The notes under the pieces were generated by a model. It searched no databases. It worked only from the letters and a program-made list of their open reading frames with translations, and had not been told where the DNA came from. Below, piece by piece: positions 16,620 to 62,458 of a DNA stretch of 64,000 bases. Origin of the DNA: Xanthostigma xanthostigma (Eukaryota > Arthropoda > Insecta > Raphidioptera > Raphidiidae); assembly GCA_963575645.1 (NCBI GenBank), contig OY754465.1, positions 5,580,001 to 5,644,000 of the forward strand, in the 5' to 3' direction. Both the position numbers and the translations under genes were made by a program. Every line of letters starts with the position of its first letter. Positions within the stretch are counted from its first letter, which is position 1.

Positions 16620-16699
16620 CTAGAAACATCAAATTTTCATTAAATCACACTTTGAGCATTTATCTATTGAATTGAAGGTTTCATAACACACTCCCAAGT

Positions 16700-17703
16700 A
16701 GTGCAGGGCATAGTGGCGCATTCGTTTGCAAAATTCGTTTGGTTCGTAATTTTTTTTTTAAATGTCCAGGAGGCTCTCCTGATTATAACAGTGTAACATG
16801 ACACTCAATATCTGTTGCCGTTATTGTTTAAACAACGAAAAATTGAAAATATTGCAAAATAAGTTTTTTTGCAATAAATAATTTTTTTATATATTTTTCA
16901 GACTATTTTGAATCGAAAAAGTCCTTACACTCATTATCGTATCTTCAACCGGTGAATTATTATGAATTTTTAAAAATTAAAAATCGTTCTAAATCGTGAT
17001 TTTCTTGAATTAAATAGTACACCTGAAAAAAAAATACCGTGATTTCTATTTTTTTATTAAATATTTAAACTTTAATAAAAAAAATTGCGTAATCAGATTT
17101 CAAATATTTTATTAATTATTATGTTTATTATTCATAATAACAATATGCTCTTTACGCGCATGCACTTTAAGGATAGTAGTATTGTCGTCTCACTCCCAGT
17201 CCTATGTATGACATTAGTAAGAGAGAGGCAGATGGTACGCTTCGACAAATTATTGCATATTGTTATTATGAATAATAAACATAATAGTTAATAAAATATT
17301 TGAAATCTGATTAGGCCATTTTTTTTATTAAAGTTTAAATATTTAATAAAAAAATAGAAATCACGGTATTTTTTTTTCAGGTGTACTATTTAATTCAAGA
17401 AAATCACGATTTACAACGATTTTTAGTTTTTAAAAATTCATAAAAATTCACCGGTTGAAGATACGATAATGAGTGTAAGGACTTTTTCGATTCAAAATAG
17501 TCTGAAAAATATATAAAAAATATATTTATTGCAAAAAAACTTATTTTGCAATATTTTCAATTTTTCGTTGTTTAAACAATAACGGCAACAGATATTGAGT
17601 GTCATGTTACACTGTTATAACCAGGAGAGCCTCCTGGACATTTAAAAAAAAAATTACGAACCAAACGAATTTTGCAAACGAATGCGCCACTATGCCCTGC
17701 ACT
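16700..17703. repeat. 1.0-kb near-perfect palindrome
   Basis: The outer ends AGTGCAGGGCATAGTGGCG and the complement at 17685-17703 bound two arms of about 450 bp that differ at few positions. The arms meet at a roughly 105-bp unpaired centre (about 17150-17257). The centre itself carries GC-richer unique sequence. No TSD is clear. High arm identity suggests a young element or continuing arm-to-arm gene conversion. Confidence 0.85.
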
Positions 17704-17707
17704 AAAG

Positions 17708-26420: not shown

Positions 26421-27369
26421 AAACAAAAAAAAAGAGCCGCTATTTTGTTTTATGGATCTGTCAGAAATAAACTAGTTCGGCATGCTTTGATTAATTTTTA
26501 CATGACGTGGAACAAATTATGTAGTTAACCATGCCAACGAAAAGCAAATATCATATTGAATACTAGCCATTACCCGCGTCACCTCACACGATATCAGAAA
26601 TTTTTTTAATCTTTCAATGACACTTCGAATCGATAAGCGAATCCTCACTTCTATGTATATTTTAGTGTCAGATTCAGGGTTTTACAAACTCAATCAAAAT
26701 CTAGTTAATTTTAAGACAACCGTATGACGGTAACTTTTCAATGGTTCGGACAAAAGTAAGTGATTAGCCTCCATGTGATTGCAGCTATTATGTTACGGTA
26801 AGCTTATATCCGCCGTTCAGTATAAGTAAAAAGACGAAAATGATTTCCCCAGACGCGTAGTGACCACGTGTGGCCGGAACTAAAATCATTAGTGATGGAC
26901 TTCAAGCAGGGTTGGTCTGGGACTTTAAAAGTTATTGGGAAAATTGTCAAACAATTGTTCGAAATAAAGTAAATGAACTCATCACGCCGCTACGTGACAG
27001 TGTAACTAAGATAAAACAGATCCAGACAGGACCGGACTGGCCCACGAAGAATCGGCGGCCCAACGGGAAAAGTCCCGCTATTCCCTGAAGCCAGACCGGC
27101 GTTGACTTCAAGCTGGTTAGTATAAAGCCCGATTCACACTATAGTGCCGGTCACGGTTCGCTCTCGGTCCAGTCTTGGTTCGGTAAACGATACTTACACA
27201 AGAAACAATGAGCGTATTCATACTATCAGCACCGCTCAAGTTCGGATCCAATCACGCTCCGGCACCGATCCGTTTAGAAGAATATTTTGCTGGAGCGTGA
27301 TCGGACTTGTCCTGACTTGTATTCATAGTATGAATAGGTTTTTGTTTCAAATGACGATACAGGGTGTAG

Positions 27370-27468
27370 GTCCTGATGATGAAAATATATTTTTCGAAAC
27401 GTTGGCCACAAGCGATACACTGGTAAAGCTTATTTTCAATTGTTCCTCAACCAAATAAATCTCCTTCA
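27370..27468 (+). mobile_element. 99-bp Penelope-like unit with hammerhead-like core
   Basis: The 99 bp lie between two copies of ACAGGGTGTAG (27359-27369, 27469-27479), an 11-bp target duplication. The unit begins GTCCTGATGATG, continues with a hairpin GAAAA...TTTTTC, then GAAACGTTGGCC, and ends AAATAAATCTCCTTCA. CTGATGA - stem - GAAAC has the layout of hammerhead stem II and core, as described for Penelope-like elements. The right half of 62058-62266 is the same unit. Confidence 0.7.
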
Positions 27469-27479
27469 ACAGGGTGTAG

Positions 27480-28744: not shown

Positions 28745-29040
28745 AATAGTTTAAAAAAACTAAAAAACATGCTCTTATAGCACATCGAACTAAAAAGTGA
28801 AAATAATTCTTAATATAAGCAGAAAATAACAATGAACTAAAAATATTAGTATTATTGTGAAAAAAGCGTGAGGCGCTCGATATACGAAAAATATAGCACA
28901 AAGCGCCTCACGCTTTTTTCACAATAATACTAATATTTTTTGTTCATTATTATTTTCTGCTTATATTAAGAATTATTTATCACTTTTTAGTTCGATGTGC
29001 TATAAGAGCGTGTTTTTTAGTTTTTTAATCTATATTTATT
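28745..29040. repeat. Foldback, GCGTGAGGCGC apex
   Basis: Arms of about 130 bp (TCGAACTAAAAAGTGAAAA ... TTGTGAAAAAAGCG) close on a 30-nt loop containing CGATATACG. The sister foldback at 29860-30155 has the same apex order. Confidence 0.8.
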
Positions 29041-32204: not shown

Positions 32205-33185
32205 TTACGTAGTATTTCCTGAAACCTGAGTTTTTGTACATTCATTAAGGGCGCTACCCTGAACGTAAAAAATGCATAAGTTCAGGTGCTCTTGAGTACA
32301 AAAACTCAAGTCTGGCATTTCGTACCCAGGACATCCTTCGTCTGGTAAAGGGTTGAACATGTCAAAACTCATAGCTCCCTCAAAATATTTCATCAAGGCT
32401 GATTTTTTCAAATCTAGTACACGCATAAAACTATAGAAACGCCGAATTATTGCTACTGTCAGATTTGAAAAAAATCAGCCTTGATGAAATATTTTGACGG
32501 TGCTACACATTTTTCCAAACGGAGGTTGTGTCGGGTATGAAATGTCGGACTTGAGTTTTTGTGCTCAAGGGCACCTAAACTTATCGCTCAGGAAATTTCA
32601 AACATGATACAGGGTGAGTTTTAAGTTGATGCTTTTTTTACAGCGTGTAAAAATCAAATAGACGAGCAAATATTTCAAATAGTTTTTTTATCAAAACTCA
32701 AAAATAAGAGAGAAACAGCCTTTTGAAGTTTAAATAAATTTTATTAAATTTTCTTTAATTTTGAGGTCGGTCCTGGGGTTCTATTATGTCACTATGGAAA
32801 TAAGTTGTTATTATCAAGTATGTTGGTGCTTATTTGAAACTGACATGTGTAATAATAACATATTTCCATAATGACATAATATAACCCCAGGACTGACCTC
32901 AAAATTAAAGAAAATTTAATAAAATTTATTTAAACTTCGAAAGGCTGTTTCCCTCTTATTTTTGAGTTTTGATAAAAAAACTATTTGAAATATTTGCTCG
33001 TCTATTTGATTTTTACACGCTGTAAAAAATAAAGCATCAACTTAAAACTAACCCTGTATATTGGCACCTCTAGTTTGACATCTTTGACCGGATCCAACCA
33101 CGCGTTGTCCCCGGTCAGCTGCCAGACTGCGGTTTTTACGTTCAGGATGAACGTACAAAAACTCAGGTTTGAGGAAATACTATAA
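32205..33185. repeat. Nested inverted repeats around a mariner-like foldback
   Basis: AGTATTTCCTGAAACCTGAG near 32212 is complemented near 33165. A second inverted pair, ATTTCATCAAGGCTGATTTT near 32385 and its complement near 32470, lies inside. The CAGGGTGAG foldback (32610-33056) then sits within the outer pair. Confidence 0.65.
32610..33056. mobile_element. mariner-like foldback CAGGGTGAGTTTT, copy 2
   Basis: A 447-bp palindrome with arms of about 205 bp and a short centre near GTGCTTATTTGAAACTGAC. TA flanks both ends (32608-32609, 33057-33058). The ends match those of the copy at 14140. Confidence 0.82.
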
Positions 33186-33666: not shown

Positions 33667-33723
33667 TTTCGATTCAATATGAATAATTAATTATTTGAAA
33701 AATGGCAAATATATACGACAAAA

Positions 33724-33950
33724 GCGTATAAGAAAATATTTTTAACAAAAAAATTGAACCGACTTCAAAATATGTACTAAAAAGTAATAAAATAATTGCA
33801 TTTTTGGAGTCGGTGTTATTATTGCTAGGTATATTGTAGTGTTTCCTTGGCTGACACCGACTACAAAAATGCAATTATTTTATTACTTTTTAGTGCATAT
33901 TTTGAAGTCGGTTCAATTTTTTTGTTAAAAATATTTTCTTATACGCTTTT
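33724..33950. repeat. Palindrome of AACCGACTTCAAAATAT arms
   Basis: Arms of about 95 bp (AAGCGTATAAGAAAATATTT ... TGCATTTTTGGAGTCGGTG) around a 40-bp centre. Confidence 0.75.
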
Positions 33951-38401: not shown

Positions 38402-38896
38402 CATAGGCGTAGCAACGATTTTATCCTAGAGGGGGCCTTTACAACTCTATCTACCATTACTAGATACTCCTACTACTTATATATAATTTGAAAACTGTTC
38501 ATAGAAGCGAAATCGATCAACATGACATTCTGGAGAAAACGACATAGAAACGTAGATTATTGTAGATTTATCTTGTTATTTGTACATAAACAATTAATTG
38601 TGAAAAATAACTCTAATAATTTAGAGTGATGATGATCCTGTTTAAATATTGGAAGATTGAAGGATGAACCTGGTGGCATAGGATCAATGAACTAAGCAAA
38701 TACTGAAGGTTTTTTTAATTGCATTTTATTGTCTGACGTTTCTCCGAAGATGGCATAAAGTTTGCCGAAACGTCAGACATTAAAATGCAATAAAAAAAAC
38801 CTTCAGTATTTGCTTAGTTCAGGTTCATCCTTCAATCTTCTGAACAATTAATATCGTAGGGTGATGGGCCTGGCCCCCCCTCTTGCTACGCCAATG
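38402..38896. mobile_element. hAT element CATAGGCGTAGCAA
   Basis: The ends are CATAGGCGTAGCAACG and, inverted, CATTGGCGTAGCAAGAGG; CAAACAAT is perfectly duplicated (38394-38401, 38897-38904). Most of the middle is the foldback at 38645-38842. Confidence 0.88.
38645..38842. mobile_element. Penelope-like inverted pair inside a hAT element
   Basis: GAAGATTGAAGGATGAACCT ... GACGTTTC faces its complement, and the two halves meet at CCGAAGATGGC - stem - GCCGAAACGTCAG. The stem GGCA/TGCC followed by GAAAC matches the hammerhead-like layout of the 62.2-kb copy, with one change from CTGANGA (CCGAAGA). Confidence 0.65.
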
Positions 38897-41164: not shown

Positions 41165-41410
41165 TTACTCTTCAATCGACCAATTTTTCAGAAAATATAT
41201 TAACAAAAATTATACAATTATAATTCAATTAATTGGCGTTTCGAATCGGAATTGGAGCTTCTTCGGAATTGAGCTAAAAAATTAATTAGTAATTATTTTG
41301 TAAAAAAATTAACTTATTTTCCGAAGATTCAAATCCGGATCGAAACGTCAATAAATTGAATTATAATTGTATCATTTTTGTTAATATATTGTCTGAAAAA
41401 TTGGTCGACA
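41165..41410. mobile_element. Penelope-like inverted pair, AT-rich
   Basis: CGACCAATTTTTCAGA ... GGCGTTTCGAATC faces its complement near 41400 down to 41340. The right half starts CCGAAGATTCAAATCCGGATC followed by GAAACGTCAA, the same order as at 38.7 kb. Confidence 0.55.
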
Positions 41411-47809: not shown

Positions 47810-48662
47810 CAGTGGCGTAACAATACGGTGGCATCACGGGCAAAATGCCACGGGCCCCCGGCCCGAGAAGTCCGTAAACACAGGATGATCCTAATATTAT
47901 CCCTTAGGAACGCTGCCTAAGAAATTGTTTTATTTTTCTGTATATAATACCTATGTATAATTTTTCTAATAAATTTTATCCTATCTTAATATTATCCAAG
48001 TGTGTAAGCTTTCACGGCCGGTGTTGATCCAAATCTTCTTGGTTTCCAGACGTGTATGCCGTGGTCCATTGGTATTACTACCTGACGTTTCGTCTACAAC
48101 TGCGGTAGACATTATCAAAGGCGCTGTGGTAGCGTGCGAAGTTTCCTTCTAGGCTGCTCACAGGTAAGTGTGTCGACAAGTGCGGTATTTCCATCTTTTA
48201 TAGTCAGCGTGCTTGTGTTCTCTACTCGGTCGTAGTATGCACTGTGCAATACCAACCCACTGAATGGAACGACCAATCACAGAAGAGCATACTAAGACCG
48301 AGTAGAGAACACGAGCACGCTGACAATAAAAGACGGAAGTACCGCACTTGTCGACACACTTACCTGTGAATAGCCTAGAAGGACACTTCACCCGCTACCA
48401 CATCGCCTGTCTACCGCAGTTGTAGACGTAACGTCAGGTAGTAATACCAATGGACCACGGCATACAAGCCCGGAAACCAAGAAGATTTGGATCCTAATAT
48501 TTATTATTAGAACATTTAGTAAAATTTATTAGTTTTGTATTCAATTAATTTACGATACCTACTAAAGTAAATACACAAATTAAACAAAAAAATGTATAAC
48601 GTTGGTTAAGCTTCGGCCCCATCCGATGAACACGAGCCTCAAATGGTATAGTTACGCCCCTG
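47810..48662. mobile_element. hAT element CAGTGGCGTAAC
   Basis: The ends are CAGTGGCGTAACAATACGG and, inverted, CAGGGGCGTAACTATACC; AAGGTGAT is perfectly duplicated (47802-47809, 48663-48670). A foldback made of Penelope-like ends (48000-48492) fills the centre. Confidence 0.9.
48000..48492. mobile_element. Penelope-like inverted pair inside a hAT element
   Basis: Arms of about 240 bp: GATCCAAATCTTCTTGGTTT ... CTACCTGACGTTTCGTCTAC and the complement. On the - strand the left arm reads TTTGATAATGTCTACCGCAG, then GTAGACGAAACGTCAGG: a stem GTCTAC/GTAGAC followed by GAAACGTC. I know this tail from arthropod Penelope-like elements. The CTGANGA core is degenerate here. Confidence 0.7.
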
Positions 48663-51059: not shown

Positions 51060-51455
51060 CAAGGTCAAAGGTTAAAAGTATCGACTTTTTAACTTTTCTC
51101 GTAAATGGTAAATGTTATCTAAAAATAGGTCAGACAAAACTTGTAGATCATGCAATTGTCTACAAAAACTGTTCTTAATATTTTTTTCCTACGAATTACT
51201 ATTCCTGAGATATCGGACCAAGTACTGAACGTATTAATCGAAAATAACGTTAAATATTAATATGTATATAAGTATTTAAGATGTATAAAATCGCCATTTC
51301 AAAGGAATGTTGATTAGTAGGAAAAAAAGTATAAGAACAATTCTTGTAGACAATTGCATAGTCTACAACTTTTGTCTAACCTATTTTTAGATAACATTTA
51401 CCGTTTACGAGAAAAGTGCAAACAACCAATACTTTTAACCTTTGACCTTGAATAG
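51060..51455. repeat. Palindrome, CAAGGTCAAAGGTTAAAAG arms
   Basis: Arms of about 130 bp; CTTGTAGA-CA-ATTG blocks meet across a 120-bp centre. Confidence 0.75.
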
Positions 51456-58584: not shown

Positions 58585-58726
58585 AAAGTATATAGTCAAA
58601 TTTCACATATAAAATTAAAGGACTTTTCCACAAAATCGACAGTCAAATGTTTTTCTATCGTCTGGCAATACTGGCAACAAGAATATTAAGAGTAGTATAG
58701 TGTAACCCTGACACTGCGTTGCGTAC

Positions 58727-58948
58727 CTGAGGACACACGTGAGTGCTGGAATGGTTACCATTACACGTGTTGGAAGCGGCGGCGGCGGCGGCGCATGCGC
58801 CTGAACCCGGCACCTTCAGTTGTTCCTTGTAGTCGGGTTGATACGGCAGCAACATCCGGATCTTGCCCCAACGGTTGAAGAACAATGCTATTGCGCCGAC
58901 CCACACCACTAACACTAGAAGAACTATACCTATTTCTACACCACGGAC
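58727..58948 (-). CDS. Transmembrane exon, FNDC4/5-like protein
   Basis: The acceptor is a strong TTTTCTCTGCAG and the donor CAG|GTACGC; 74 codons in phase 0. It starts VRGVEIGIVLLVLVVWVG, continues AIALFFNRWGKIR, a single membrane helix of about 22 residues followed by a basic stop-transfer, then MLLPYQPDYKEQLK, a GC-rich alanine run and CNGNHSSTHVCPQ. The W-x-G-x-IALF pattern and its place resemble the membrane segment of FNDC5 (irisin precursor) and FNDC4. The fibronectin domain would be upstream, outside the window, so the family name is inference. Confidence 0.7.
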
Positions 58949-59016
58949 CTGCAGAGAAAACAAAACAAATCGTTTAAATGATAGGTATTACCATTCCACC
59001 GATCGGTAGTGGTGAC

Positions 59017-62040: not shown

Positions 62041-62057
62041 GCGCCAGTTATTAAAAT

Positions 62058-62266
62058 TAGGAGAAGTTTTGTTCCAAAATATGTATTGAAGGAGATTTAT
62101 TTGGTTGAGGAACAATAGAAATAAGCTTTACCAGAGTATTGGTTGTGGCCAACGTGTCGAAAATTAGCCCTGAGGATGAAAATATAATTTTCGAAACGTT
62201 GGCCACAACCAATACTGTTGTAAAGCTTATTTCTATTGTTCCTCAACCAAATAAATCTCCTTCAAT
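62058..62266. mobile_element. Penelope-like inverted pair with 14-bp TSD
   Basis: CCAGTTATTAAAAT stands at 62044-62057 and again at 62267-62280. Between are two inverted copies of the 99-bp unit seen at 27370 (GAGATTTATTTGGTTGAGG and complement). The right half starts CCTGAGGATG, with stem GAAAAT/ATTTTC, then GAAACGTTGGCC: CTGANGA - stem - GAAAC. The long duplication fits target-primed retroelement insertion. Confidence 0.75.
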
Positions 62267-62458
62267 CCAGTTATTAAAATACAAGCAAAAAAACATTGTC
62301 TTTTAAAATATCTTTTATAAGAGTACCTAAACTGTGCGTTGTGAATTTCTAAAGGTGCCGAAATCAGTAAACAATAGTATTGGAAGAAATAAAAAATATA
62401 AGGAATTTAGTGATGTGAAAACAAATTTAAAAAAACAACTCGCTTTCAAAGAACCCCG

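Follow-up and report, generated by a model that had tools for sequence, protein, structure and literature searches.

The DNA stretch analyzed here (hereafter the window) comprises 64,000 nucleotides of the Xanthostigma xanthostigma contig OY754465.1 (positions 5,580,001 to 5,644,000 of the forward strand), with a GC content of 30-38% in steps of 4 kb and an open reading frame on the minus strand (58658-58987) that matches Pfam DUF4808 (E 2.3e-26). It contains five loci occupied by a short repeated unit, one of them a solo copy of 99 bp (27370-27468) and the other four head-to-head inverted pairs located at 62058, 38645, 41165 and 48000. The unit is composed of a minimal type I hammerhead and about 90 nt of sequence after it, and judging from the sequence the units appear to be 5' fragments of Penelope-like elements (PLEs). 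The patterns described below derive from these five loci, which represent four families (A to D) in one window. Other long palindromes are present in the window (16699-17704, 28801-28978, 32634-33029, 33720-33950 and 51087-51422), and inspection by eye revealed no central hammerhead core in them.

Measured from the ATG position, the outer ends of the units fall at +82 to +91 and those of the tailed arms of families A and D at +114 to +118. The right ends are found at +90 in the solo A copy, +91 in the A palindrome, +91 in B, +82 in C (a position not fixed by a duplication) and +87 in D (taken at the equivalent place on the left arm), and the tailed left ends at +118 in A and +114 to +117 in D. 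An extension is confined to the left arm in three of the four palindromes (A, B and D), the C palindrome being without a defined end. Target duplications, their strength gauged by how many of 2000 random stretches of the window reach each repeat, are strong at both A loci, probable at B, weak at D and absent at C. The units, their spacing, the covariation of stem I, the one-sided extensions of A, B and D and the target duplications at three loci are all read directly from the DNA. Since the pattern had been picked out in an earlier note on this DNA for its regular look, no p-value is attached to the position of the ends.

Family A is represented by the solo unit and by the palindrome at 62058. 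The solo copy (plus strand) starts at the GTC ahead of CTGATGA and has outside it an 11-bp target duplication, ACAGGGTGTAG (27359-27369 and 27469-27479), which was reached by none of the 2000 random stretches. The insert at 62058-62266 (209 bp) consists of an extension, then an inverted copy and then a direct copy of family A, and lies between exact 14-nt direct repeats of CCAGTTATTAAAAT on the plus strand (62044-62057 on the left and 62267-62280 on the right), a match reached by 2 of the 2000 random stretches. The extension, or tail (62058-62084, minus strand), adds 27-28 nt to the left arm only, is absent from the right arm and reaches about +118 relative to the ATG position. The left inverted copy (62085-62166, minus strand), delimited by the alignment of the arms and by inverted repeat I18, has its 5' end within hammerhead loop II. 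The right copy (62167-62266, plus strand) begins with the outer nucleotide of stem I (GCC ahead of CTGAGGA) and ends at +91. It contains on the plus strand a minimal type I hammerhead-like motif (62167-62203) with the layout GCC-CTGAGGA-U-stem II-GAAACGTT/GGC, the slash marking the predicted cut. By eye, the tail of the left arm seems to resemble a later part of the Poseidon ORF.

In family B, two inverted copies meet at the core within the palindromic insert at 38599-38842. The left arm begins with an extension of 53 nt (38599-38651), a candidate for element sequence that exceeds the usual length of tails and may be of host DNA origin. The left copy (38652-38742) carries a 17-nt insertion and stops at G12 of GAAAC, and the right copy, which starts 1-3 nt before the core (38741-38743), runs to 38840 and ends at +91; two nucleotides at the junction can be assigned to either copy. 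A candidate 10-bp target duplication, AACAATTAAT, lies outside the insert and was reached by 20 of 2000 random stretches.

The family C palindrome (41176-41408) has a core in both copies, with C3 at 41266 (minus strand) and 41321 (plus strand). The 54 nt between these positions place the meeting point about 27 nt upstream of each core, and the right arm ends at +82. A repeat search of the flanks returned no target duplication, so the true ends of the C palindrome are uncertain. Stem II is not formed in the usual register in either copy, and the right copy has one mismatch in stem I.

The family D palindrome (47996-48493) is made of a tail (47996-48025) and an inverted pair (48026-48493), the right copy extending to 48493. 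The left copy, from 48026 upward, contains the ORF start, with the ATG position at 48112 on the minus strand. The center of the palindrome lies about 145 nt upstream of the core, with 289 nt between the core positions. The left core reads UUGAUAA (48112-48118) and carries the changes C3U and G8A, in which both partners of the C3-G8 pair are altered; in the right copy, 8 nt of the core strand are missing (48406-48409). Consequently, ribozyme activity is doubtful for family D. The target duplication outside the palindrome is weak (7 nt; 337 of 2000 random stretches reach it). Both the B and the D palindromes lie within inward-facing GGCGTA(A/G)C ends (38406-38892 and 47813-48658, respectively), as though nested in TIR-type DNA transposons.

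The hammerhead core is the join or start point at three of the five loci (27370, 38645 and 62058), and five of the nine copy ends (the solo copy counted once and each of the four palindromes twice) fall inside the hammerhead. The earlier note had described repeats invariably joined at the core, a picture that is partly confirmed, holding at those three loci and failing at the two palindromes whose centers lie upstream of it, by about 27 nt at 41165 and about 145 nt at 48000. Its unit standing alone at 27370 and starting at the core was recovered, the copy beginning 3 nt before the core, as were the two inverted copies meeting at the core at 38645 and 62058, though not at 41165. At 48000 the core it listed is present, albeit as UUGAUAA in the left copy, and the palindrome had been overlooked. 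Finally, the CTGANGA-like core, stem and GAAAC attributed to all five loci are borne out in families A and B, while C lacks the usual stem II and the core of D is altered.

Minimal type I hammerheads of PLEs have reportedly been described by Cervera and De la Pena in 2014 and by Lunse et al. in 2017. A search of the window for CYGANGA followed by a stem II of at least 4 bp and GAAA returned three places (27373, 38744 and 62170), and the same motif appeared on average 0.63 times, and at most 3 times, in 40 first-order Markov sequences. The bare motif is thus only modestly above chance, and the case for a hammerhead rests on repeat structure, the covariation of stem I and spacing. The core CUGANGA and GAAA, together with stems I and II, are present in A (two copies) and in B (as CCGAAGA, with U4 changed to C). 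A stem II of 4-6 bp follows one unpaired U in A, B, D and Poseidon_Ac, an element of Anolis carolinensis. Stem I, in which the three bases preceding C3 pair with the three that follow CGUH, reads GCC/GGC in A, UCU/AGA in B, AUU/AAU in the left copy of C, and CCU/AGG in D and in Poseidon_Ac. With the right C copy (one mismatch) and the solo A copy (one G-U) set aside, 12 of 12 positions pair across the four families of the window, as compared to 3-7 of 12 when registers are slid by 1 to 5. Furthermore, among the 24 possible assignments of stem I strands the true one alone gives 12, the runner-up giving 11.

Covariance models were less generous. Rfam returned no hammerhead in the whole window, either at the gathering score or at E values up to 10, and none in the stretches 62140-62230 and 38715-38795. 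The earlier note had named the lack of a covariance match at all five sites as fatal to its reading, and to the letter this is what was found; yet the same models also missed two canonical-looking motifs of viral contigs, L002 and L003, at the gathering score, and L003 at E values up to 10 as well, which makes the negative a weak one. Models built with the scored family left out gave E values of 0.0011 for B, 0.012 (62167) and 0.24 (27370) for A, and 0.1 and 1.2 for C. A further model, R1, performs more strongly than these but is no independent test of its sites because four of them were used to build it. Pattern scans of viral contigs for relatives yielded five loci (L001-L005), none of them PLE-like from the sequence around the match, and scans of genome contigs yielded no related loci. 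R1 scored the viral locus L004 at E 0.0007, but its values on L001-L005 are no fair control, since these loci had been picked by the same kind of motif. L002 (11735-11777, plus strand) and L003 (3690-3731, minus strand) have the appearance of canonical type I hammerheads in which A9 and stem II are separated by an additional U.

In a type I hammerhead with this layout, cleavage follows CGUH, which predicts cuts at 62200/62201, 27403/27404 and 38774/38775. Each of these cuts would fall 32-34 nt downstream of the 5' end of its copy (62167, 27370 and 38741-38743, respectively), and the left copies at 62058 (in loop II) and 38645 (at G12) likewise end upstream of the cut. The predicted cut site is kept inside the copies, and consequently cleavage did not make these 5' ends.

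Homology to a known PLE was revealed in family D, which reads MSTAVVDETSGSNTNGPRHTRLETKKIWINTGRESLHTW from its ATG (MSTAVVDETSGSNTNG...NTGRESLHTW). When anchored at the ATG, this sequence and the ORF start of Poseidon_Ac are identical at 12 of 39 residues in a gapless alignment, a value reached by none of 100000 permutations. Eight of the identities are within the first 16 residues and four (residues 32 and 34-36) are in the tail. When the two pieces were compared by BLASTP, the match had E 0.001 (8 of 16). In an unanchored tblastn of the window with the Poseidon N-terminus, two unrelated places (E 0.69 and 1.8) scored better than D (E 2.4), and no protein-level match to Poseidon was found for families A to C. 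At the DNA level, the Poseidon_Ac fragment matched the D hammerhead better than any other place in the window (48121-48081, minus strand; 41 nt, 75.6%, E 0.019), and the second match, at E 0.065, was unrelated. Only the tail of D is backed as element sequence by homology. Ten of the 12 listed open reading frames of at least 110 amino acids contained no PLE protein (reverse transcriptase or GIY-YIG endonuclease), the only match being DUF4808. The inserts are too short for an ORF encoding reverse transcriptase and GIY-YIG endonuclease and were therefore classed only as non-autonomous relatives or 5' fragments rather than as full members. Overall, the Penelope-like unit with a hammerhead-like core that the earlier note had proposed is supported by the covariation of stem I, by the match of D to Poseidon_Ac and by outer ends near published start sites of reverse transcription.

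The closest known system is Poseidon_Ac. According to the available portions of its description (PMC11167929), this element shares with the window a CUGAGGA-U-stem II-GAAACGUC hammerhead with a 3-bp stem I that overlaps the ORF start. Further likely points in common are an internal start of reverse transcription, located in vitro at +111 to +118, a genomic tail that corresponds to the sequence between two such start sites, and action on both strands of the target, which are cleaved and extended during insertion. In contrast, Poseidon_Ac is a full element with an ORF, the RNA tested having a 5' region of 126 nt (PMC11167929), while only 5' pieces are found here, those of families A to C having no recognizable coding sequence. 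Penelope elements of Adineta vaga, as presented in the accessible text of PMC3846280, have head-to-head inverted pLTRs, palindromic junctions, a 31-bp tail on one inverted pLTR, target duplications of 9 and 10 bp in some cases, and a pLTR that spans the first 12 codons of the ORF. They differ in that most have ORFs for reverse transcriptase and endonuclease, and a hammerhead goes unmentioned in the main text to the extent available (PMC3846280). Inverted pLTRs and short 3' extensions are also listed among the features of PLE copies in the part of PMC8969392 at hand.

Two other groups of ribozyme-bearing sequences invite comparison. Minimal type I hammerheads of PLEs similarly lack stem III and are dispersed in metazoan non-coding DNA, according to sections of PMC7761336 and PMC6155905; the ribozymes described here are putative, and the left copy of D differs by its changes at C3 and G8. 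Metazoan non-LTR retrozymes, as outlined in portions of PMC7229834, are also short and non-coding and have a type I hammerhead, but their repeats are tandem, their hammerheads canonical and their RNAs circular (PMC7229834), whereas single or inverted units occur here. Since PMC11167929, PMC3846280 and PMC8969392 describe, in the parts available, inverted copies, tails, palindromic junctions and duplications, the architecture is already known. Inverted PLE copies with a one-sided tail and PLE hammerheads are thus published features, and the loci described here add a useful constraint on mechanism.

We consider it probable that the window contains four non-coding or 5'-only PLE insertions, of four families, in addition to the solo A unit, and that the palindromes arose by two-sided priming followed by end joining. 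The unit would begin with the PLE hammerhead, where the ORF starts, and would stop about 90 nt downstream, at an internal site from which reverse transcription is initiated. Each strand of the cut target would prime reverse transcription on PLE RNA, with one cDNA beginning at the nearer start site (about +90) and the other at the farther one (about +118), which would leave a tail. Both cDNAs would be extended toward the 5' end of the RNA and their ends would then be joined, the junction falling at the hammerhead in families A and B. We infer the two-sided priming, the end joining and the status of the A and B extensions as element sequence, in the case of the A tail from its position. Two-sided priming as an explanation of head-to-head PLE copies was not found in the literature surveyed, coverage of which was partial, and we claim no priority.

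The arms at 62058 and 38645 carry the argument. At both loci the core between the arms has the orientation of the right copy, which means that the right arm was not copied from the left. The extension is present on the left arm only, and the left arm, which thus carries sequence absent from the right, is no simple copy of it. At 62058, where neither arm was simply copied from the other, two separately primed cDNAs are favored. These relations weigh against self-priming, in which an antisense PLE template or first cDNA would fold back near the hammerhead and be copied into a head-to-head palindrome. This is a possible origin of the palindromes, though not one we expect. It is the published reading of palindromic PLE junctions, proposed for Penelope of Adineta vaga in the part of PMC3846280 available, and it would accommodate the 2-nt overlap at the B junction and a right arm of D that could be a shortened copy of the left; we infer that stem II of the hammerhead could draw the ends together. 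A host origin of the A and B extensions would remove the left-arm half of the objection from the arms. Snap-back into the right flank was rejected as a source of the extensions, which are alike to that flank at only 10 of 29 positions in A, 10 of 53 in B and 7 of 30 in D; for C, which has no defined end, the comparison used an arbitrary 36-nt piece.

A variant of two separately primed cDNAs, one per cut strand with its own start site, gives the ribozyme a structural role: the outer edge of the folded hammerhead, not cleavage, would fix where the RNA, or the copy, has its 5' end. In two families, three copies (right-hand or solo) start no more than 2 nt from the outermost base of the 3-bp stem I. 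A 5' stop at this edge would fit an RNA ending there, for example because transcription begins at that point or because the fold halts a nuclease. At the three loci with core junctions, arrest of reverse transcription, the end of the template or joining near the ribozyme are all possible. We think it unlikely that the folded edge sets the ends in this manner.

Foldback DNA transposons (MITEs) with a chance hammerhead-like sequence would account for inverted repeats in a window that holds many others (104 pairs of at least 24 nt within 1500 nt). Such an origin is highly improbable given duplications of varying length (11, 14 and about 10), extensions on one side only, a half-unit that stands alone between duplicated target sequence and the match of D to Poseidon; the terminal motifs used in this comparison were judged by eye. 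Still less credence is given to the proposal of the earlier note that ribozyme cleavage sets the 5' end of the RNA and hence the junction. In its favor, five of the nine copy ends are inside the hammerhead. Against it, all five lie upstream of the predicted cut, which the copies retain, the ends of C and D lie further upstream, and, in the portions of PMC11167929 available, hammerhead mutations left insertion in vitro unaffected and the authors detected no RNA-seq reads that started or stopped at the cleavage site.

The origin of head-to-head PLE copies and the purpose of the conserved hammerhead are open questions in the literature, as far as the accessible text of PMC3846280, PMC7761336 and PMC11167929 indicates. 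Two-sided priming followed by end joining, the reading we prefer, bears on the first of them: one-sided tails can be tallied in any genome with such copies, a simple way to test self-priming against two separately primed cDNAs with genomic data.
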